This document shows positions 39,001 through 53,063 of a stretch of 64,000 nucleotides of DNA, in pieces. Numbering within the stretch: the first letter of the stretch is position 1; every line of letters starts with the position of its first letter. The position numbers and the translations under genes were made by a program. Location of the stretch: contig NC_026659.2 in NCBI RefSeq assembly GCF_000004075.3, positions 620,001 to 684,000 of the forward strand, in the 5' to 3' direction. The DNA comes from Cucumis sativus (Eukaryota; Streptophyta; Magnoliopsida; Cucurbitales; Cucurbitaceae). Below the pieces are notes generated by a model, which made no database searches, was not told the origin of the DNA, and saw nothing but the letters and a program-made list of their open reading frames with translations.

Positions 39001-40764
39001 TTTCAAAAGACATATTTAACTATAATTTATTAGTTTTGAAAAAAAAAACTCTAAAATAATATTAAGGGTCTCGACTAAAATTGAATGCTTAAAAAAGTAT
39101 AGAGATAAAAAAGAGAGGAGACTAAAATCGTAATTGAACCAAAAATAAATAAAGTGAGATAGGAGAGAGAGATAAAGATGATAGGAAGTGATGAAAGCTT
39201 GGTTGAAATGGCCAAAATATGCTTAGTTTGGTGATGAAACAATGAACACTTTTTTTTAGTAGTATTATTGAGTGGTTAGCGTGGGCGGTGGGTGTTATTT
39301 ATTTATTGGGTAATTGGGATTGTTACAATATATATCTGTGTGCATGTGCGGCCTATTTGTATTTGCTTTCTTAGACTAACAATACTTTGCCTTAACATTA
39401 TTCTTCTTCTTTATTCTTCTTTATTCTTTTTCTCTTTTGGTTCTTTACTTCCTTCAATTTCACCCTTTTTACCTACCTCCAAAAATTCTTTCCCATCCAC
39501 AAAAATGGAATATGTTAGATTATTTTTTTCATGACGTAAACAAAATCGAAATGAATTAATCAAGAATGATATAGTGAAGCTTCATCGCTAGAGAGATAAT
39601 AATTTTATTTTGTAAAGAAAAATAAGATAATGTAGATAATAATAAAAATGAAAGAGTTTATATGTATCCATTTATTTTCTTTTTATTTCTTTTAATGTTT
39701 TAAGGATGAATGGAGGGGATTAAGATTCAAATTCTATTCCCTAAATTAAAACAATAACTTCCACATTGTTTATTGGTTGATTTTTAATGAGGTTTAGGTA
39801 TTTTTGTGTTAGTTTAGTATATATCAGCCCTTTTTCCTAAACCCTAGTTTTGTGGGTTTAGTTCTACAACTTTTTAATGGATATATATATATATATGATT
39901 GAGACCTTTCTATATTTTTATATGTATATGTATAGTTGGTTGAAAGATTAGAATATTTTTAATATTTATAACAAATAATAAAACATGAGTATAACTAATC
40001 AAATTCGGTTATAACTTTATTTCTTTCCTTGAATTTAATGTAATTTTTGGTAATGTAATGGGTGAAGTTCTAATTTAGTTTTAAATAATTAATATGAACC
40101 TAACTCAACGATCACTTGTATGTAATTAAAGGTTATATATCACTCTCTCTACCTCTATCTACCTCTAATTGTATTAAATGATGAACCTATATGTATAATT
40201 AATTTTTTTTTGTGTTTAAGGTTAGAATTGAAAACACTACAAGAAATTAAATTTTAGATATTAAAATTTAAAATTTGGATATTAACTCAAAAAAATCAGT
40301 ATTTCTTTTTAGTTTAACAATAGGAAGGGTGATGATTAAAATCATTAACATAAAAAAACAAAAATATATCAACAAAAAAAATATACAAACAATCTCTCAC
40401 TTTAGCACAAATCAAATCGTTGAATTACATAGTAAGTGATCATGTATATATTTTATTAAAAAATGTTCTCACTTTAGGAGGTGATATTTTATTTTTCTTT
40501 GTTGTTTTATATATTTTGAAAAAGGAAAAGGAAGGTTTATGAAGAAGGGCGAAATGAATGACTGTGAGGAAAAGAAACCCAAAAGAAAGTGGGTGACTCT
40601 TAACATTATATCACAATGCAAAGAGCTGTATAAAGCCAAGTCCATACCCATTGACTTTTCTTCATTATTAATTTCAACTTCTTTTTTCATTTACAATTTT
40701 CCCATTAATTTATACTAAACTAATAATTATAATAAACAGTATTTCATGGGACTTTGTTCCTCTC

Positions 40765-40771
40765 TATAAAT
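40765..40771 (+). promoter_or_regulatory. TATA box of NIP5;1
   Basis: CTCTATAAATTTG is followed by a pyrimidine-rich CTTCCTTCTTCCCTCTTCTC stretch typical of a plant transcription start. This predicts a leader of about 530 nt before the NIP5;1 start at 41331, of similar scale to the long leader of Arabidopsis NIP5;1. Confidence 0.55.
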
Positions 40772-41027
40772 TTGCCTCTTCCTTCTTCCCTCTTCTCTCC
40801 ATTCTCTTACTCCCGTTTTAAACCTATCTCTCTCTCATTGTTCCCCATTTTCTTCCTATCTCTTTTCTCAACTAATCTTAATTCCACAACTCCATTTTGG
40901 TTTTTTCTTCTTCACTCTGGATTTTCTCATTCAACCCATCTTTCTTAGGTTCTAAATTAAACTAAGCCTGGCTTCCTTCTCTTCAACAAATCTTCCTTAA
41001 CTTCACATTTATAAAAGCTTCCAAATC

Positions 41028-41033
41028 ATGTAA
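41028..41033 (+). promoter_or_regulatory. AUG-UAA minimal uORF, first copy, NIP5;1 leader
   Basis: ATGTAA in the context AAATCATGTAACTT, 303 nt before the NIP5;1 start. In Arabidopsis NIP5;1, AUG-UAA elements in the leader cause boron-dependent ribosome stalling and mRNA degradation. The position matches that gene's element (about 300 nt upstream). The boron response here is inferred from the family. Confidence 0.75.
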
Positions 41034-41115
41034 CTTTAGCCCCTTTCTTAATCACCCCCTTCAAAAAAAATCCCAAAAAAAAAAAAAAAAAAAAAACATT
41101 TTAAAAAAACTTTAG

Positions 41116-41142
41116 ATGAATTTCTCTTGTATCCCAAACTAA
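41116..41142 (+). promoter_or_regulatory. Eight-codon uORF in NIP5;1 leader
   Basis: ATG at 41116 opens a frame of eight codons (MNFSCIPN) ending TAA at 41142. It lies between the two AUG-UAA elements. It may only be passed by reinitiating ribosomes; no conserved peptide is recognised. Confidence 0.4.
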
Positions 41143-41215
41143 AACTCTAGTGTTTAATATCCTGGCTAAGCTTCCAATTCTGCCTTAGAACAACCTTTAT
41201 AAAAACCTTCAAATC

Positions 41216-41221
41216 ATGTAA
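41216..41221 (+). promoter_or_regulatory. AUG-UAA minimal uORF, second copy, NIP5;1 leader
   Basis: ATGTAA in the same context as the first copy (AAATCATGTAACTT), 188 nt further downstream and 115 nt before the NIP5;1 start. The flanking bases also match (TTTATAAAA...CTTC), so the two copies come from a local leader duplication. Confidence 0.75.
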
Positions 41222-41330
41222 CTTCGTTCTTTTAAATCTCCATCATTCCAAACCAAAAACCCAAAAAAAAATATTTGATTTTTTTAAAAAAATACCCAGA
41301 AGTTAGTTTAGTGAAAAAAGAAAAAAGAAA

Positions 41331-44300
41331 ATGCCGGAATCGGAAAGTGGAACGCCGGTAGCATCGGCGCCAGCGACGCCGGGGACGCCGGGAGGGCCGC
41401 TGTTTTCCGGGCTCCGAGTAGATTCTCTATCGTACGATCGGAAGTCAATGCCGCGGTGTAAGTGTTTGCCCGTGAATGCTCCCACGTGGGGCCAACCTCA
41501 CACGTGCTTCACTGATTTCCCTGCTCCTGATGTCTCTCTCACTCGCAAGGTACCATTTTTTTTTTTCTATTGCATAATATGAGTTTAATTCCTATTTATG
41601 CTTTTGTATTTTTCTATTTTGAATATATTTTGTACATTTCTTTAATACAACACTTGATAGGAAAATTCGAACCTCCTCCTCCTTAAAGATGAGGTCATAG
41701 ATCAAATTAGCATTTAATTAAGTTTGTTTTCACTGTTTTTTTTTTTTTTTTGTGAGTTTTTAAATATCTAAACAGCATTTAAGTTCACAATAACTGATAT
41801 TATATTTTTGGATAATAATATCAATTATTAGTACAATAAATAGTGGTTTTTTTTAGAGAGTAGAACTTTCAATTTTTGACTTTTGATACAACCAAATGAC
41901 AATTTTTGATCTTATTATAGGGTCAAAGTTTCCATAATAATTAATGGGTTTTGGTTGTGTATCTCTATAGGATTTGTGTTGGGATTTTACCCATTGATAT
42001 TTAAATTATTATAAATAAATATTGTTCATTTAGAAAAGAAATGAAGCATAATAGTATTTTTTACATATATATATATATATAAACTTATTTATTTATTTTA
42101 TTCTGACATCTCTGACTTGGATTGGATTGTTGCATTTTGAGCATTCAATTATTAAGTCATAACAGAAGAACTATCTCTTTAAATAATTTTTAAAAGGTTA
42201 TGTTCTCAATAATTGATCTCAAATTTTATGTGCCTAAAATGACCCCTCTTTGTTCTTTTCCTTCATTTTTAATTTATAAATTTAGTCATGTGATATATTT
42301 TTTAAAAAAATTTAGGCATCTATTTTCTCAATCCTATCCTTATTATTATTTTATTTTAATTTTAAATAAAACTATAACAAAATAAACCTATAATGTAAAT
42401 TTTAAAATATTTTTAGATGTAATTCTATTAACTATTTTATCTTGTTCTCCAAAGTATTTGGAATTAAAAGAAAATTGAGAAAATATTGTAAATAAAAAAA
42501 TTAGTAAAAATATTTATAAAGTATAACAAAATTTCAATATTAATAAAATATAATTTTTTTATATTTTATAAATATTTTTAGTATATTTTGATCATGTTTT
42601 TTCACACTTTATTTATTTTGGTATTGCTCTCTTTGAAAGTTTAAAATAAAAATATAAAAATAAATAAATAGCATCATCTCTTTCCCTTTTATTTGTTTAT
42701 TAACTATGGGGAGAAGGCACCTAAACAATAATTGATGAAGATAATCAAAACTATTATGTGGATGGCTATTTTTTTTCCATAAACAATGGAACTTTTTTTT
42801 TTAAGTTAAGAAAGAAAATGACATTGCTTTTGTATAATTTAAATTCATGTATCTTATATTAGTTTTGTCGTCTATATATTTTCTTATTACAAATTAATTT
42901 AGATATTCTTAATTTTACAATAACATAACGACAAAATAATATTTTTTTTAAAATATCTTAGTGCACATTTTTTATTTTAGCTTAATATATGTTTGAGTCC
43001 ATAATAATTTTTTTAGAGACATTATTTCAATTTAATTCATATTGATTAAAAATTTAGAACTTAGTTCTTCTAGTTCTTAGCTCATCTTTTTTTTTTTTCC
43101 CCTTCAAAACTCGTGTTTTTTAAACGCAATTAAAGGTAGACAAAATTTTGGACTTAGTTCTTCTGGTTCTTAGACTTTTTGTTTGTCAATTAGTTCATGA
43201 ATTTTAATAAATATCAATTAGATATAAAAGTGAGAGATGAAAGACTTATTATACATAGTAATTAATTTCTTGTTTATTTAATTATGCTCCACAGCTGACC
43301 ATTTGCATTGTTAATATCTAGTTGGGAGCAGAATTTGTGGGGACATTCATCTTGATATTTGCTGCGACGGCAGGCCCCATTGTGAACCAAAAGTACAACG
43401 GCGTGGAAACTCTGATCGGAAACGCGGCATGCGCAGGGTTGGCGGTGATGATTGTAATTCTGTCAACAGGACACATTTCCGGTGCACACCTGAACCCATC
43501 ACTCACCATTGCCTTTGCTGCCCTCCGCCACTTTCCTTGGGTTCAAGTCCCCGCCTACATTGCCGCCCAAGTCTCCGCCTCCATTTGCGCCTCCTTCGCT
43601 CTCAAAGGGGTTTTTCACCCTTTCATGTCTGGTGGTGTCACCGTCCCCTCCGTCAGTATTGGCCAAGCCTTTGCTCTTGAATTTATAATCACTTTCAATC
43701 TCCTCTTTGTTGTCACTGCGGTTGCCACTGACACTCGTGCGGTATGTTGTTTTTCCTAATTAACTTATGCTCTACATGATCATTCGTATTCTTTAACAAA
43801 TCTTTTCCTTTTCTTTTAGGTCGGAGAGTTAGCAGGAATTGCAGTCGGAGCTACAGTGATGCTTAACATTCTTGTAGCCGGGTCAGTTTTTTATCCCGAC
43901 CTTTTTAATAAAAACAAAAACAATATGCAATTATGTATTATGTATTATATAATTAAACGTTAAAGATATGATCGGATATGAATTCGTAATTGATTTTCAT
44001 ACACTCAAAATATATTTTAAACTTCGTTCCTAAAGGAAAAGCAACCTCAATCATTCGTAAAACAAATAATTTTGAACATGTGCTTTTCATATCACTTTGA
44101 TTGGAAGCTCAAACCCAACTTGTAGAGAATTTACAACTGAAGTTTAAATAATATAAACAATTTCTTACTTTTTTTTATTTTTCCAAACAAAACGTACACA
44201 ATTAGGTGTCAAAAAGTTGACATTTTTCCCACTTTCATAATATAGTGTTCCATTTTTTCCAATAATTTCATAACAAAACAAAAGAGAAAGGAATCTCTAT

Positions 44301-45091
44301 TTCAACGATATTTAATTATATACTTATAAATGACGACAAATTGTGTTCTTAGTTCCACTTTGTCCTTTTCTTCCCATTATTTTCAAGCAATAACTTTTTT
44401 TGTTCTTATGAAGTTTGGTTCAATTATATGAGAAATACTTCTAACTTTTGAAAAGATTTTTTCTTTTTGTTAAGTTTTGAACCCTTTTTTGAAAAATAGC
44501 CTTAAAATTCAAAATAATTCGGAAAAATAACTTTCCTTTTGAAAAGAAGGAGAATTGATGTGTGATGGATGTGACATTTATCATAATTATACAAATGATT
44601 AATATAGTTATAGCCATTTATTTTATAATCATTAAATTTTACATCATTGTTTCGTGTGAATGATGGATGGAATGAATTAATTGAGTTAACTCTTATCTCT
44701 ATGCATTTCACCTCGATCACACTCGTAAATATCGACAATGAATGTGATTGATTAAAAGTTTGAAGATGAAGTAGCATCCATGGGCCACTAAAAATTTAAA
44801 GTAATCCCAAAACCTTTGACTTAGAACCAAAAAGAGAGAAGGAATCGTTTTTTGCCATTCATAATTAACGAAGACTTTTGTGGCATTAATGTCAGGCCCT
44901 CAAGCGGTGGTTCGATGAACCCTGTTCGAACTTTGGGACCCGCCGTGGCTGCTGGAAATTACAAAGCATTGTGGGTTTATCTGGTGGCGCCGACGCTTGG
45001 GGCAATAATTGGGGCCGGGACTTACACCGCCGTCAAGCTGAGAGACGACGAAGTGGATGCTCCATCGCAGGTAAGGAGCTTCCGGCGTTGA
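41331..45091 (+). CDS. NIP5;1: NIP5;1 boric-acid channel (aquaporin family), four exons
   Basis: Exons are 41331-41549, 43322-43741, 43820-43881 and 44896-45091, joining in frame to 298 aa (Arabidopsis NIP5;1 is 304). It is a plasma-membrane nodulin-26-like channel with six membrane segments. The first pore motif is NPS (residues 131-133) and the second NPV (242-244), the pair that marks NIP5;1 (NIP6;1 has NPA/NPV). The selectivity-filter Arg follows the NPV (R245). The N-terminus carries TPGTPG (16-21), the Thr-Pro-Gly repeats needed in Arabidopsis for polar, soil-side localisation, and the conserved CKCLPV, WGQ and [12 protein letters not shown]. Family role: boric acid uptake in roots under low boron. 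Intron 1 is about 1.8 kb and intron 3 about 1 kb. The leader has two AUG-UAA elements. Confidence 0.96.
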
Positions 45092-47480
45092 AATTCAGAC
45101 GGTGCGAATAATTTGGCTATGCATAGCATAAAATAATAAGTAGTGTACTGTTGTGTGATTTGTGGAATAATAAAGTTGAGAAGAAAAGGCGATTGGTGAT
45201 TACTGAGACTTGAAGACTATATAATCGTCTCGATTCAGATTGCTATGTTGGGTGTTTTTATATGCGTAATTGGTTTCTACTTGCCGTCTTCGAATTCAGT
45301 TCTTTAATTTCGGGGTTTCTTTTGTAAAAACATACAAACTTTTGTGTTCTCTTTATGGTTGTGATCAAATGTGGAATACACATCTGGTCTTTGTGATATA
45401 TATGTATAATGTATGGGCTTGTTTAGTATATGGTTTGCATTACTTGGCTGTTTCTTTTTTTCATTTTGATAATGTGTGAGTTGGGCAAATCAAACATCTA
45501 AATTGATAGTATAAACAGTTTTATGTTCATTTAAGCACGTTGATTAATTAGTCGTTATACTATATAAGTGTAGCATCGATATATATTGATCTTGTTATCA
45601 CATTTTATATATTACAATTAAGTTGTCACCTAATTAAGTTAGGGTATATTCCATAAGTAAATTAGAAATTTTGTACAATATACTGTATTCCAACAAAAAT
45701 TATGACACAAGAAATAAACCCCATCATAAAAACTAATAAACCATGATGTATGCAATTTATATTTATATATAATTTTAATATTATCTAATCTACGTATATA
45801 CTTGAGATGTGGATGGAAAGCTTATAAATTTTCATGTAGGAATATAGAACAAAATCAATATTGCAATAGCAAAACTTTGAGAAACTATAGTAAAATTATT
45901 TCAAATTTCATCGTATTAATATTTATAGTTAAACGTTAATTGAAGGGACCAATAATATAATTTTAAATTGACCATAAGAGCAATCATATATATCATAACG
46001 TACGTAATGTGCCTATGACTATGCCTAAACATTTAAAGGCCAATTGAGACAATCATTGTCATTTTGCACATCCAAACTACTATTCCCCACACCCCTTTTT
46101 TCTTTTGTTTGAGACAATAAATATTGAATTACAATCAAATGAAAACAATTCTTCAAATAAGCTATGTGTAATTGTTCACCTTAGGATGCCCCCTTCTAGT
46201 TTTCTAGATAAATTGAAGAAAGAAAACCTATGTGTGTGTGAAAAAAATGCTAATAAAATTACAAATTTATGTGGTCTCATTTGTAAGGGATAAGAAGATC
46301 AATATCAAACAAATTCTTCCTTATATCTTTATGAGTCAAAGATTGAGCCATACCATTTCGACTTCGATGAATCCGAATATAATAATAACAATGAGAAATC
46401 TTGGTTGAACTAAAGAAAAACAATATTAAAATCATACAAAGGTGTTTTTATAATAAAGTTACCATCATTTAATTTATGAAGGCATCAAGGTAAAAGTAAG
46501 GTCCCCCACACACATTGAAGAATTGTTTCCATTGCTAAGAATTAATATGGTTCCCTGCCTAGTTGGCTTCAGTTGAATTTTAATGCTAGTTGACTAAAAT
46601 TTATAGGCTTGTTTTCTTTAACACTTGAATTCTTAATCAAATTCTCAAACCTAAAACATGTTTATGAAAATTTGCTCTATAGTGATCTAATGAGACTTAA
46701 TTTTTTGGTTTTGTAAGCAAAAAAAACTTGTGGTTATTTGAGCTTCCCACTTGGTCTTCTTGATGCTGCCAAGTTGGAACCTCTTTTAGCAGTAGACTTT
46801 TATTTATTCATTAATGCATTATTTGTCTCTAAGTTTTCAAAAAAGAAAAAGAAGTGTAACGTTAAGATCACTCTTTTCTCTTCTTTAAATAGATGGCAAA
46901 TGATCTATTAAATGATGAATCTCCAACAACTATGGTTTGAGTTAATGTTAAGAATACAGGTATCCTCATCTCTCTAAATCTTTTCAATTTTAATTGGAAG
47001 TCTTTACTATTGTTTTTTAATTACAGTAAATGTGAGTTATGAATTTAGAGCTGGAAGTATTCGTTGTTAATTATTGTCTAGTTTTTTTATTGATTTTTAT
47101 TTCTTTATTTTATAATAAAGATATAAAATGAACTTAAGATACCAAAAAAATATTTTTGACGAACTTGAAAAATAATAGTTTGGCTATGGGTAAGAGAAGT
47201 TAATTAAACTTAATCTCCTAATTTATAAGTTAAAATTTTCTTTGTGGCTTAGTTAAACTTTAGGATAGTTTGATAAACGACAAATATTTTATAAATTGTA
47301 CGTTAAAAGTGAATTTCATCAAATGGTAGAAGTTAAGTTGTAATTATATGGACTAAATTTAACTTTATTTAAAAGTTTGATTTCTTTCTTATTAGTAAAC
47401 CCTAAAGCTTGTTTTTAGAGAAGAGAAGAAGATAAAAGACGAGAAAAGAGAGTTATTACCTTATTGAACATTAGAAGCTA
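45092..47480. other. Spacer between tandem NIP5;1 genes
   Basis: AT-rich DNA between the two aquaporin genes. It holds the 3' region of the first gene and the unknown promoter of the second. I see no obvious copy of the NIP5;1 leader here and no ATGTAA in the 600 bp upstream of 47481, although one ATGTGA (AUG-UGA) occurs at 47030. Confidence 0.5.
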
Positions 47481-49820
47481 ATGGCGTTCGAGTGTATACA
47501 TGTAGACTCCCCAAAGCGAAGCCACACTCTTGATGTCTCTCTCACTCGAAAGGTAAAATCTCTATCGTAAAATATTATTCTTTGTGTTGACTAAATTTTT
47601 AGCCCTAATAGATGTATTTAGTTTTTAAAATTACTCGACTTTTCCTTTTACATTTATTTTAAATATTGATATGATATTTTTAAATGATCAAACAAGTAAA
47701 CAAAAGAGTGTGAGAAAGATAACTTTTTAATTAATATCTTTAATTTAAATGCCAATGCCAACATTTAAACAATTCTTCAAACGGTAGTATTTAAAAAAAA
47801 ATCTGTGTTTAATATATTTCTGAACATTATAAATACCAAATAAGAACTTGTATCTAATATTTATTTTACCGAATTAAAAATTTATTATTAACAAAAAAAT
47901 AAATAGAAAGCATACGTAAAATAGGTAACAGAAAATAACATATAATGTTATATTAACTTTTGATCAAGTTTGCTATAGAGAAAATTAAATTTTATGTTTA
48001 ATAGATCATTCAACAAATTTAATAAAATGTTAAATAAGTCAGCAACCTATTAGATATACAACTAAAATTTCAAGTTATTATTATATATGAAAAGGAAAGT
48101 TCAAAAATTATTAGATAAAAAGTTATTATTCCCAAAATTTCAACTACTATCAATTTATAATAAGGACAAGCTCCGCTTAATTGCTCGTTTGAATTAACTT
48201 AAGAAAAAATGTTTATTAAAAAATACATTTTTATTTGAACTTTTTGGATGAAAAATATTTAAAATATGCTTCAAAATTTTTTTGGAGTGGTGTTATAAAA
48301 TGGTTCTTTTAAAATTAAACACTTTATTTCAAACACACCAGGTGTGGGCTTGCAGAATCTGACCTAAACTATGATTGGGCCTCATAAGGTTTTACCTACG
48401 CTTATGATTGGGGGCGTAAGGCTTTTGCCTAGCCCAAACATAGGCTTGGTCAGCCCAACTAATATGGCCCAATGACGATGTTTATGAGTTATGGGTGAAA
48501 CTGAAGACAAGAAATCAAGTTTATCAGAGTTACTTCTCGAGAATGCTACCACTTTTTTTTCCCTTTTGAAATTGGATGAGGACTTTAAACTCTCTTTTCA
48601 TTATGGATCTAAAAATTTTGTTTTGTTATCTACTTGTTATCAATATTTGAAAGAAAAAACCAACCCAAAATGTGAAAATTTAACAAAGATTTGGTCATAA
48701 TTATATAGCAAACTTTATAATTTGTGATAATTGAAGAATGATTTACTTAAAACGAAAAGTTTATTTCTAATATTTGCATCAAAAGTATTGCCTCAATATA
48801 GTTGAATGAGATATAAATTAAGATTTCAAAAGTTGAAGATTCGATCATTAAAAGTTAGCAAACTATTTGGAATTTGAACGGAGCTTCTAGCTAATATGAG
48901 AGAATTTGAGTGATATACAAAGGTGGCAGCCGAATTTGTGGGCACATTCATCTTGATATTTGGTGCAACAGCTGCACCCATCATCAACCAAAAGTACAAC
49001 TCCCCCATGTCACTGATCGGAAACGCAGCATGTGCCGGCCTAGCTGTGATGATCGTAATTCTCTCAATAGGACACATCTCGGGTGCCCACCTGAACCCGT
49101 CGCTCACCATCGCTTTGGCCACCCTCCGCCACTTCGCTTGGGCCCATGTCCCTGCCTACATCACCGCCCAGGTCTCTGCTTCCATATGTGCCTCCTTCAC
49201 TCTTAAAGGCGTTTTTCACCCTTTCATGTCTGGTGGTGTCACAGTTCCGTCCGTTGGTACCGGTCAAGCCTTTGCTCTTGAATTCCTCATTACCTTCAAT
49301 CTCTTGTTTGTCGTCACTGCTGTTGCTACAGATACTCGAGCTGTAAGGGAAAAAAAAAAAAAACATTCTTTAATTGTAAGTTTTTTCATAGCATAATAAT
49401 CAACATTACTTGATCGTCACAGGTTAGAGAGTTGGCCGGAATTGGAGTTGGAGCTACAGTGATGCTCAACATTCTTATTGCAGGGTCAATATTTCTAATT
49501 CTATCTTCTTTCTTCTCTTTAATTTTGAGGATTGATTACATCTCGAGTGAAACCAAAAATAAAATGAAAGTAGATAATACAACGTATGAAAATTGATTGT
49601 ACGTATGAACGATATATATAATAGGCCATCCACCGGTGGTTCGATGAACCCAGTGAGGACTTTAGGCCCTGCGGTCGCCGCTGGAAATTACAGAGAACTG
49701 TGGATATACATGGTGGCTCCTACACTTGGGGCCATCGTTGGCGCCGGAACCTACACCGCCGTGAAGCATAAAGATGATGGAATAGATGTTCTGCCGGAGG
49801 TGAGCAGTTTCCGTCGTTGA
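47481..49820 (+). CDS. Tandem NIP5;1-like paralogue with shortened N-terminus
   Basis: Exons are 47481-47552, 48923-49342, 49423-49484 and 49625-49820, giving 249 aa. Exon lengths 2-4 (420, 62 and 196 nt) and intron phases equal those of the upstream NIP5;1 gene. The channel core is intact: NPS at residues 82-84, NPV at 193-195, [14 protein letters not shown], and the same SSFRR-type end. Exon 1 encodes only 24 residues, of which the last seven (DVSLTRK) match NIP5;1; the TPG repeats and CKCLPV segment are missing. Exon 2 begins VAAEFVG rather than LGAEFVG, and its acceptor (TATACAAAG) has a poor pyrimidine tract. With no stops or shifts it could be functional, but the first exon is weakly supported and a silent copy is possible. 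Substrate presumably boric acid, by homology. Confidence 0.78.
48345..48480. repeat. GCCCA-rich block with an imperfect 30-bp direct repeat
   Basis: Within intron 1 of the second NIP gene, CTATGATTGGGCCTCATAAG and CTTATGATTGGGGGCGTAAG are followed by related GTTTTACCTA/CTTTTGCCTA parts. Further GCCCA/TGGGC cores follow to about 48475. The stretch is GC-richer than its surroundings and probably an old repeat or insertion. Confidence 0.45.
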
Positions 49821-50779
49821 TAGTGATGGTGGTAGCTAGCTATAATGTTTGTGTTTAAATGTTCCCTTTTGCTTTGTGTATTATGATCATTAATTAATTA
49901 TAGATATAACTTTAGTTTTTGTCATATATATATGTTGCAGTACTCTCTAATATTCACACAAGTTTAACAACCATTATTTGAAATATTGAGTTTGACTTAA
50001 ACCTAAACAAAATGTTGTCAATATTTGTCTCAAAACAATCCTAAAGTGAATGACAAAAAATAACAATGTAGTTGGAAGAGTTTGAGGAGTCCTTTTACTC
50101 ATTAATTAAAAAGTTTAAGTTGACGAGCGAAAGTAAATTTAATATTATTATATCAAACTAACACGGTCTTTTACTCGAAAACGTTAATATAATTATATTT
50201 ATAAACTTTATTCATTAATTACTTAAATTTTTTCTTTCACCAATGTGCCATAACAAATGAAACAATAGCTTTAAGTGAAAAAAAGAACTTAAAAGACTTA
50301 AAAGGAACTAAGCCCCACAAGTCAATTCATCTCGATTGAAGAGGTTCTTTATTAGTATTTAAACAACCAACCAAATTAAATGACGATCATTGACTACTAT
50401 TGAATACAACATGCTTTCCATCTATCTATCTATCTATATATTATAGCTTTGTTTTTCTTTCAAAAATACTTGGTGGATCTTACCTTTCCTTTCTATTCAA
50501 TATTTAGGTCTTTTAAGACATTATACATATAGTCCATCCAAACTAAAATTTATACGATTGAAACTTTCTTAAATACAATACTTACATCCTTACCCAAATT
50601 TAAAAAACAAAAACGATTTTTATATGTTTTTAAAAATTTGCTCTATATGAGTGTTCACACGAGATTTCGAAAAGATGTATTTCGTGAAATTTAATTTTGA
50701 TATATTGATGAATATAACGGATACAATCTCTGGTATTTACTCATTTGATGTCTTCTCTCGAATACAAGTTAAAACTTAA

Positions 50780-51130
50780 AATTTATTGATCTTCAGTCTT
50801 CAGGGTGTTGTAGTTGCAAGTCGATTTGAACTTCGATCTTCTGGAATTCAAGAAAAGTTTAATCTTTGGAATTCAAGAAAAGTTTAATCTTTTAAGTCAT
50901 CAATCTTTCAGAAGTTGTTGGTCTCGAGGTTAGATATGAACTTAGAAGTTTGAATCAATTCTTTTTTCAACCAAAAACCTCCTCAAATGAATGACAAATG
51001 TCTCTATTTATAGAGAAACTTCATGGGCTTCAGGTGGACTTGGACTTGGACCTATTTTCTTGGCAAGCTCAAGCCTCTTGATTAGTCCAATTTTTCATCG
51101 AGGCTTGAATTGGGTTGGATACGAAAAAAC
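50780..51130 (-). mobile_element. Possible solo-LTR remnant
   Basis: On the minus strand the segment has CTCTATAAATAGAGAC, a TATA-like box in an otherwise non-genic, moderately GC-richer block with CTTGGACTTGGACCT and GAGGCTTGAATTGGGTT, as often seen in plant retrotransposon LTRs. Ends and target duplication were not resolved, so this is a weak call. It includes a 25-bp exact tandem duplication at 50843-50892. Confidence 0.3.
50843..50892. repeat. Exact 25-bp tandem duplication
   Basis: The unit beginning GGAATTCAAGAAAAGTTTAA is present twice back to back (50843-50867 and 50868-50892), pointing to a recent slippage or fill-in event. Confidence 0.85.
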
Positions 51131-51674
51131 TTTGACTAACCAGATCTAATCAAATTATTGTAATGATGTGACGAAATTTAATTGGTCGAAATTTTTTGGT
51201 TGAAGAATGAGAAATGAAAATAAACCTTTTGTTTAAGAAAAAACAAAATAAATACTAAATAGAACACAACTAAAATTAAACATTGACTAGGAAAATTTTA
51301 TTAAATTTATATATTTTATTTATTTGCATGCTAAAAAAAATAAAATAAACAAAATGGGGTGACATAATATATATATATATATATAATAAAAATATAAAAA
51401 AAGAGTATGAATATTAAATAAAGAGGTATAAAAATGGGGCCTACAATTGGCAGCCACATAATTCGAAATCTGTTGGCAAAATAATTGGTGTTATGGACAA
51501 CAAGTCATCGTCGGTGATGGCAACGTGTACTCCATCCTCCACGTTTCACTTCCCTTCTTTTTTCACTTCTTTTTTTCCTTCTCTAAAACAAACAAACAAA
51601 TATTCTTCCCTTCCAAATATTACAAACAAACCATTTTTTACATTTAATAATATCTACATTTACATTTCTCTCTT

Positions 51675-53063
51675 TTACCATCTCCCCATATCCAATCCTT
51701 TACTGCCACGTTTCACCTCCCCAACACTCCCCATCTTTTCCCTCATCATCTCCACCACCTCTCCGATCCTCGGCCTCGGTGCCGGCGGCTGTCTCACGCA
51801 CTCCGCCGCTATTCCTATCAACGCCCCTGCTTCATCCACCTCCAATTCCCCCCAGAGTTTTGGATCAACTAATTCCAAGACCTCCGACGCTTTAATTCCT
51901 CCCCCGTCGCGAACTGCCGGAGGTAAAATTGATGTCAGAATTTGACCCTTCTCCGAACAGAATGCTTCTTTCCCAGTGACTAGCTCTAAAAGAACAACGC
52001 CGAAGCTGTAAACATCGTTTTTCTTTGAGGCGATTCCGGTTCTTAGATATTGGGGATCTGTATATCCTGGAGATCCCATCATCAATTGCTTTGCTCTGAA
52101 TGGGCTAGACGGCGAGGATGATGATGATGGGTTCCCCACCGCGGACGAAAATCCCATTTTTGCAGACCCGAAATCGCATAATTTGCAGTTCAATTGCTCG
52201 TCTAGTAAGATGTTTGATGATTTTATATCGCCGTGAACGATTTGTAAACTGCATTTCTCATGGAGGTATTCGATTGCTTGTGCTAACTGAAAAGCTATGA
52301 GTAGCCGGATTTTCCATGGAAGAACCGACGCCGCTGGCCGTCGGTGGAGCTTCTCTTGTAAGTTGCCATTTGGAACATATTCGAATACCAAAGCTCCTTC
52401 ATCTGCAATTTTCAAATAAATTAATAAGTTAAACCTTGATTATGGGATTATTAAGTTAAAATAATTGGTTAATTGAAGATGGAATTGAAATAATTGAATT
52501 GCTTTTATTCTTGAAAGAAAGCATTATCCTTTACTGTCTTTTTTGCTTTATTCTTTTCCTTTGTTTCCTCTCTGAATTTGAAACCACTTTTTTTTTTCCT
52601 TTTTCTTTTGCACTAATCCAAACTTAATTATTATCAACAAACAAAAATGGTAAAAACAGCTCATTGATTTACATTCTTAACTGAACGAATAAAGAAGAAA
52701 GAAAAAGAAAACAGAGTCACTCTGTTTCTCACCTCGTTCATCACAATAACCAACGAAATTGACAATATTACGATGACGGAGTTTGAGAAGAATGTCCAAT
52801 TCTTGCCGGAACATTCGGTTAAGCCGCTCGCTAGCGCCTAAAATCTTAACGGCAGCGGCCATCCCCGGCGCCGTCCGAGCAAGATAAACGTTGCTGAAGC
52901 CGCCGGAGCCGACAAGAGTGGAGAAATTCTTAGTGAGAGACTCGATCTCAGTCCAACGAAACCTTGTAGCAAAGAAACTCTGTTGAATTTGAGCATCGAG
53001 AATGGTTTTTTTATCAGCAACTTTGGATTTTCTCTTAACTCTAAAGAAGCGGAGCAAACCCAT
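51675..53063 (-). CDS. Receptor-like cytoplasmic kinase, At1g33260-like, non-RD
   Basis: Exons are 53063-52733 and 52402-51675, joining as DER|DEG to 352 aa (At1g33260 is about 350). There is no signal peptide or membrane segment, so it is a cytoplasmic kinase. The glycine loop is GSGGFSNVY (52-60), the ATP lysine is K73 in AAAVKIL and the helix-C Glu is near E88. The catalytic loop is HGDIKSSN (167-174), with D169, K171 and N174 present but Gly in place of the HRD Arg, so it is a non-RD kinase. The metal motif is DFG at 187-189, followed by a Ser/Pro-rich insert (NPSSSSSPSSP), then GSPGYTDPQYLRTG and DVYSFGVVLLELVTGKEA. Substrate and pathway are unknown. Non-RD kinases often work in immune signalling, but that is only a general tendency. 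Confidence 0.9.

Follow-up and report, generated by a model that had tools for sequence, protein, structure and literature searches.

The AUG-stop switch in the 5'-UTR of Arabidopsis NIP5;1 is said to have been described by Tanaka et al. in 2011 and 2016. According to published papers, this 5'-UTR contains two AUGUAA elements (PMC11915504, PMC7503886, PMC12666852), with GRO-seq peaks over both of them (PMC11915504). Boric acid is reported to stabilise eRF1, whereby ribosomes are kept on AUGUAA, with impaired re-initiation and cleavage of the mRNA as the result, the 5' ends of the decay intermediates lying 13-14 nt upstream; GGNVS motifs are reported 60 and 52 nt upstream of the two ATGTAAs (PMC11915504). 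At 12-19 nt upstream of the AUG there is a well-conserved region, described as enhancing decay, not stalling (PMC12666852). In rapeseed, BnaA3.NIP5;1 is credited with 'two conserved uORFs' in its 5'UTR, given as -464 to -1, and CTTTC repeat differences between alleles are reported to alter expression (PMC8279314); for Arabidopsis, a 5'-UTR deletion is given as -558 to -313 in PMC9208793. The TPG repeat is required for the polarity of AtNIP5;1 (PMC5698777).

Among the cucurbits, a melon study (PMC7747737) gives CmNIP5;1 as a gene of 4 exons whose mRNA has 1794 bp and whose protein has 298 aa (Table 2) and NPS/NPV motifs; it is adjoined by CmNIP5;2 (250 aa), for which qPCR showed expression in root and leaf whereas RNA-seq put it in the group of lowest expression. 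Here we describe a cucumber NIP5;1 orthologue whose leader very probably carries the same double AUG-stop boron switch as that of Arabidopsis, together with the adjoining NIP5;2 gene. The leader is of an already described regulatory kind, here in one more species.

Gene identification and features

The window, i.e., the whole stretch of Cucumis sativus DNA that was analysed, is 64,000 nucleotides long. Four exons with GT-AG junctions (Table 1) yield an open 298-aa frame that is assigned to Pfam MIP (major intrinsic protein). The protein contains the NPS and NPV motifs as well as a TPG repeat (TPGTPG) in the N-terminus, and is 93% identical to Ricinus NIP5-1. (Note that three open sets of junctions were found; the set chosen is the one that retains residues of the relatives.) These features of the predicted protein support the identification as the NIP5;1 boric acid channel gene, and the first-pass annotation, which had placed the elements described below in a NIP5;1 leader, was right in this respect.

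Because a TATA box candidate is present at 40765, transcription is predicted to start near 40797, which would give a leader of about 534 nt with both AUG-stops within the mRNA. The three AUGs of this assumed leader are those of AUG-stop 1, of an 8-codon uORF at 41116, which had already been noticed between the two AUG-stops, and of AUG-stop 2. The leader is probably free of introns, because the 4 exons of melon CmNIP5;1 equal the 4 coding exons found here, if the melon annotation is right.

Table 1. Coordinates of the features in the window

Feature	Position	Strand	Evidence or remark
TATA box candidate (TATAAA)	40765..40770	+	Motif list; a pyrimidine-rich stretch then follows
Repeat unit 1, with AUG-stop 1	40987..41036	+	78% identity to 41175-41224 over 50 nt
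TTTATAAAA block, unit 1	41008..41016	+	-20 to -12; position of the reported decay-enhancing region
AUG-stop 1 (ATGTAA)	41028..41033	+	Motif scan
Run of 22 A between the units, in the assumed leader	41075..41096		Assembly length may be unreliable
8-codon uORF between the AUG-stops	41116..41142	+	Leader motif list
Repeat unit 2, with AUG-stop 2	41175..41224	+	Repeat and local alignments
TTTATAAAA block, unit 2	41196..41204	+	Offset equal to that in unit 1
AUG-stop 2 (ATGTAA)	41216..41221	+	Motif scan
NIP5;1 coding exon 1, with TPGTPG	41331..41549	+	Spliced-frame model
NIP5;1 coding exon 2	43322..43741	+	GT-AG junctions, open frame
NIP5;1 coding exon 3	43820..43881	+	Spliced-frame model
NIP5;1 coding exon 4, with stop	44896..45091	+	Pfam MIP on the joined protein
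NIP5;2 coding exon 1, short N-terminus, no TPG	47481..47552	+	Spliced-frame model
NIP5;2 coding exon 2	48923..49342	+	86% aa identity to NIP5;1 exon 2
NIP5;2 coding exon 3	49423..49484	+	Spliced-frame model
NIP5;2 coding exon 4, with stop	49625..49820	+	Pfam MIP on the joined protein

A motif scan of the window placed the two ATGTAA of the + strand at 41028 and 41216, with a spacing of 188 nt, in agreement to the base with every coordinate given in the first-pass annotation. Relative to the main ATG at 41331 the AUG-stops are located at -303 and -115, and the distance of 303 nt quoted earlier for the first of them is thus exact. The shared context and similar flanks that had been claimed for the pair were also recovered: AAATCATGTAACTT is found at 41023-41036 and at 41211-41224 with 0 mismatches between the copies, and the ungapped repeat (40987-41036 vs 41175-41224) is identical at 39/50 bases (78%). 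Counted in the register of each ATG, the ungapped likeness amounts to 8/10 at -40 to -31 and to 26/30 at -20 to +9, is weak at -30 to -21 (4/10), and falls to 0-4/10 beyond these blocks. The gapped local alignment is longer (about 140 nt; 40914-41056 vs 41109-41241). TTTATAAAA occupies -20 to -12, counted from the A of the ATG, in both repeat units.

Compared via the published descriptions, the locus resembles Arabidopsis NIP5;1 in being the orthologous gene with a long leader and two AUGUAA, and resembles rapeseed BnaA3.NIP5;1 in having two conserved uORFs in the 5'UTR. In its position TTTATAAAA fits the Arabidopsis region at 12-19 nt, of which it is a candidate counterpart. Regarding GGNVS, no forward match was found within 90 nt upstream of either ATGTAA; on the reverse strand the motif matches at 56, 36 and 10 nt in unit 1 and at 45 and 36 nt in unit 2, but it is too loose for these matches to have meaning. 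That both elements are boron-type AUG-stops, as the first-pass annotation had read them, is well supported by their sequence, their register and the upstream block.

Frequency of the elements in the genome

The genome searched comprised 226,625,048 bases in 88 contigs. A single ATGTAA is at background level, the window containing 77 vs 79.3 expected, and the 14-mer AAATCATGTAACTT is near background, with 18 genome sites (10 + 8) vs 14 (7 + 7) for the reversed control. Dinucleotide shuffling of the assumed leader (40797-41330) gave two or more + strand ATGTAA in 0.4% of 20,000 rounds, a figure to be taken as indicative because the leader bounds were set from the TATA box after the finding was seen. 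Aligned locally, 40797-41060 and 41105-41330 reached a score of 32, which was attained by 0/2000 shuffles (maximum 28.5). Considering all ATGTAA pairs no more than 300 nt apart on either strand of the window, the pair at 41028/41216 was the best, with 39/50 bases; the next-best pair (minus strand, 7 nt apart) agreed at 26/50 bases. The composite element TTTATAAAANCNTTCNAATCATGTAACTT, searched with up to 3 mismatches, yielded 2 genome matches, both in the NIP5;1 leader, vs 0 for the control (such genome-wide counts may be lower bounds), and the 226.6 Mb yielded no further copy. A chance pair of ATGTAA was ruled out by the window counts, the shuffles and the comparison of pairs, and the two matches of the composite element, being the only ones found genome-wide and both located in the NIP5;1 leader, argue likewise that the pair is not due to chance.

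The three best genome matches to NIP5;1 exon 2 were NIP5;1 itself, NIP5;2 and a NIP6;1-like gene (contig C4:1204500-1213500), with the switch seen only in NIP5;1. The NIP6;1-like gene also encodes TPGTPG in the N-terminus. In the 2500 nt searched upstream of it, ATGTAA was found only at -1325 and -1881; its leader may be long and spliced.

Proposed working of the leader

Gene identity, elements, flanks shared in one register and the lack of any further copy among the genome matches are results of this analysis, and stalling, cleavage and re-initiation are taken over from Arabidopsis. Under high boric acid, eRF1 would be held in the A site and ribosomes would stay on AUGUAA; re-initiation by such stalled ribosomes at the start codon of the channel frame would fail, and a cut in the mRNA would be made about 13-14 nt upstream of the AUG-stop, which here would be inside the TTTATAAAA block. 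Under low boron, ribosomes would leave AUGUAA and re-initiate at the main AUG. A ribosome escaping the first AUG-stop could be caught at the second. As each AUG-stop has its own upstream block, both would be equipped to trigger decay, and we infer that both respond to boron in cucumber.

The role of the second AUG-stop is less certain, because in the published work consulted on AtNIP5;1 both the degradome signal and the small RNAs are tied to the first AUGUAA. It is conceivable, if rather unlikely, that a single AUG-stop is at work, probably the first, and that the second is conserved for other reasons or catches only those ribosomes that leak past the first. The Arabidopsis leader deletion mentioned above would fit such an arrangement, as it is reported to abolish the boron response (PMC9208793), but the stop context and the upstream block are kept in both units here, and the GRO-seq peaks in Arabidopsis cover both AUGUAA (PMC11915504).

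Regarding the origin of the double switch, the first-pass annotation had proposed a local leader duplication that could change the strength or threshold of the boron response. The two units are indeed alike beyond chance, as after an old duplication, and to this extent the proposal stands; recent local copying found no support. That the second AUG-stop is a recent copy of the first, made in the cucurbit lineage and shifting the response threshold or strength, appears very improbable. The identity of 78% over 50 nt and the alignment beyond chance, gapped over about 140 nt, would suit such a copy, but Arabidopsis NIP5;1 itself has two AUG-stops and rapeseed BnaA3.NIP5;1 two conserved uORFs, so that the double arrangement is shared with Brassicales, and the ungapped likeness does not reach beyond the core at each ATG, a pattern that suits an old repeat under constraint better than a fresh copy. 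The idea that copying has altered the system relative to Arabidopsis is not supported by the same published leaders. The simplest account would be that one duplication preceded the divergence of the cucumber lineage from Brassicales and that both copies have been retained since. One-to-one descent of both elements from the ancestors of the Arabidopsis pair is suggested on the basis of the published papers; alternatively, there may have been two independent gains, one in the cucumber lineage and one in Brassicales.

The sequence TATAAAA fits the TATA consensus, and it was picked up by the motif list at 41010 and 41198. TTTATAAAA might accordingly be read in each unit as the TATA box of an internal core promoter, from which transcripts would start about 30 nt on (near 41040 and 41229), past the AUG-stop, and so escape the switch. 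We regard this as most improbable, given the upstream TATA box at 40765 with its pyrimidine-rich stretch, the capped 5' end reported upstream of the first AUGUAA in Arabidopsis, and the role in mRNA decay ascribed to the conserved upstream region (PMC12666852). The least credible reading is a leader intron that removes one element, for which ATGTAACT, resembling a weak donor (CAT/GTAACT) in both units, would provide donor-like sites at 41030 and 41218, with several TAG/CAG sites downstream. This candidate donor departs from the donor consensus at -1 and +5. Besides that departure, the 4 exons listed for melon CmNIP5;1 are accounted for by 4 coding exons (PMC7747737), and the identical letters form a functional element in Arabidopsis. 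Leader intron and internal promoters were dropped on the evidence counted against them, and the double AUG-stop switch is retained as the reading of this leader.

The adjoining NIP5;2 gene

The genome search with NIP5;1 exon 2 revealed a second gene in the window (match at 48926-49342, 86% aa identity). This gene, the tandem paralogue NIP5;2 (47481-49820, +) and counterpart of melon CmNIP5;2, begins 2.4 kb past the NIP5;1 stop codon, and its four exons yield an intact open 249-aa frame with Pfam MIP; the protein is 92% identical to the melon protein. From VSLTRK onward it shares 193/231 residues with NIP5;1, with a dN of 0.09 and a dS of 0.89. The pairwise dN/dS of 0.10 points to purifying selection, the ratio covering the pair and not the NIP5;2 branch alone. 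(A 246-aa open frame with a TTG start, possibly a gene exon, is located downstream of NIP5;2 at 51675-52415 on the minus strand.)

The arrangement is like that of the melon tandem CmNIP5;1/CmNIP5;2, with both genes on one strand, in the same order and with a short NIP5;2 N-terminus; the protein lengths are 298 and 250 aa in melon and 298 and 249 aa in cucumber. For CmNIP5;2 the melon study gives 5 exons, against the 4 coding exons of the present NIP5;2 model, which may therefore lack a leader exon. At the H2 filter position the melon study gives S, whereas the aligned residue here is, in our own reading, A (both melon entries from PMC7747737).

A blastn comparison of the NIP5;1 region (39500-45800) with the NIP5;2 region (45801-51500) gave three matches only: one covers exons 2-3, one exon 4, and one a stretch of 29 bases where exon 1 ends. 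The 29-base match (47527-47555) spans the end of NIP5;2 exon 1 and 3 intron bases, and no DNA similarity between the two leaders was found by blastn. There is no + strand ATGTAA between 42423 and 53501, hence none upstream of the NIP5;2 coding start outside NIP5;1, and only a leader that started within NIP5;1, or upstream of it, could bring NIP5;2 under the switch. In 45092-47480 the AUG-stops are limited to ATGTAG at 45834 (-1647) and ATGTGA at 47030 (-451), which would be candidate AUG-stops of another kind if the NIP5;2 leader extends there.

The N-terminal TPG repeat is absent from NIP5;2 as well. Its short N-terminus is common to the proteins of melon (P0004), Benincasa (wax gourd, P0006) and Cucurbita maxima (pumpkin, P0007) and to P0005. 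The start of the Cucurbita protein, MSQIECLPIDAP, aligns in our own reading with an internal stretch of NIP5;1, and the start of NIP5;2 appears to correspond to a methionine inside NIP5;1. The protein search found 816 proteins, of which the best 120 were examined. An SLTRK-like anchor is present in 118 of these best 120, and TPG before the anchor is missing in 10 of the 118, i.e., P0004-P0007 and six that resemble annotation starts or altered repeats. A tree was inferred from 27 proteins (25 chosen from the best 120 of the 816, plus NIP5;1 and NIP5;2 of the window). Five short NIP5;2 forms, including P0005, group together in it (100/99, the bootstrap not being settled), and NIP5;2 sits on longer branches. 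The tree neither places the NIP5;1 of the window nor dates the duplication; the other cucurbit NIP5;1 are outside the rows considered.

NIP5;2 may thus be a boron channel without a boron switch. We tentatively put forward, as a possibility somewhat short of even, that the tandem cucurbit copy kept the channel without the AUG-stop leader and TPG, as a selected boric acid channel that escapes both the high-boron mRNA cutting and polarity. The terms 'TPG' and 'uORF' are both absent from the main text of PMC7747737, and no loss of switch and TPG in cucurbit NIP5;2 was seen among the literature titles and abstract openings listed, a scope beyond which most subscription papers lie; that the losses are unpublished is not claimed firmly.

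Implications

The double element is not new, the arrangement being known already from Arabidopsis. Outside Brassicaceae, the double AUG-stop switch and its two upstream blocks have now been placed in cucumber. This speaks for an old pair of which selection has kept both copies. The main interest lies in the contrast with the adjoining NIP5;2, which would be without the switch: NIP5;1 and NIP5;2 offer a natural comparison, within one genome, for the value of boron control of a boric acid channel. If the proposal for NIP5;2 is true, this gene would offer a natural example of a channel that has escaped two layers of NIP5;1 control, mRNA cutting and polarity.
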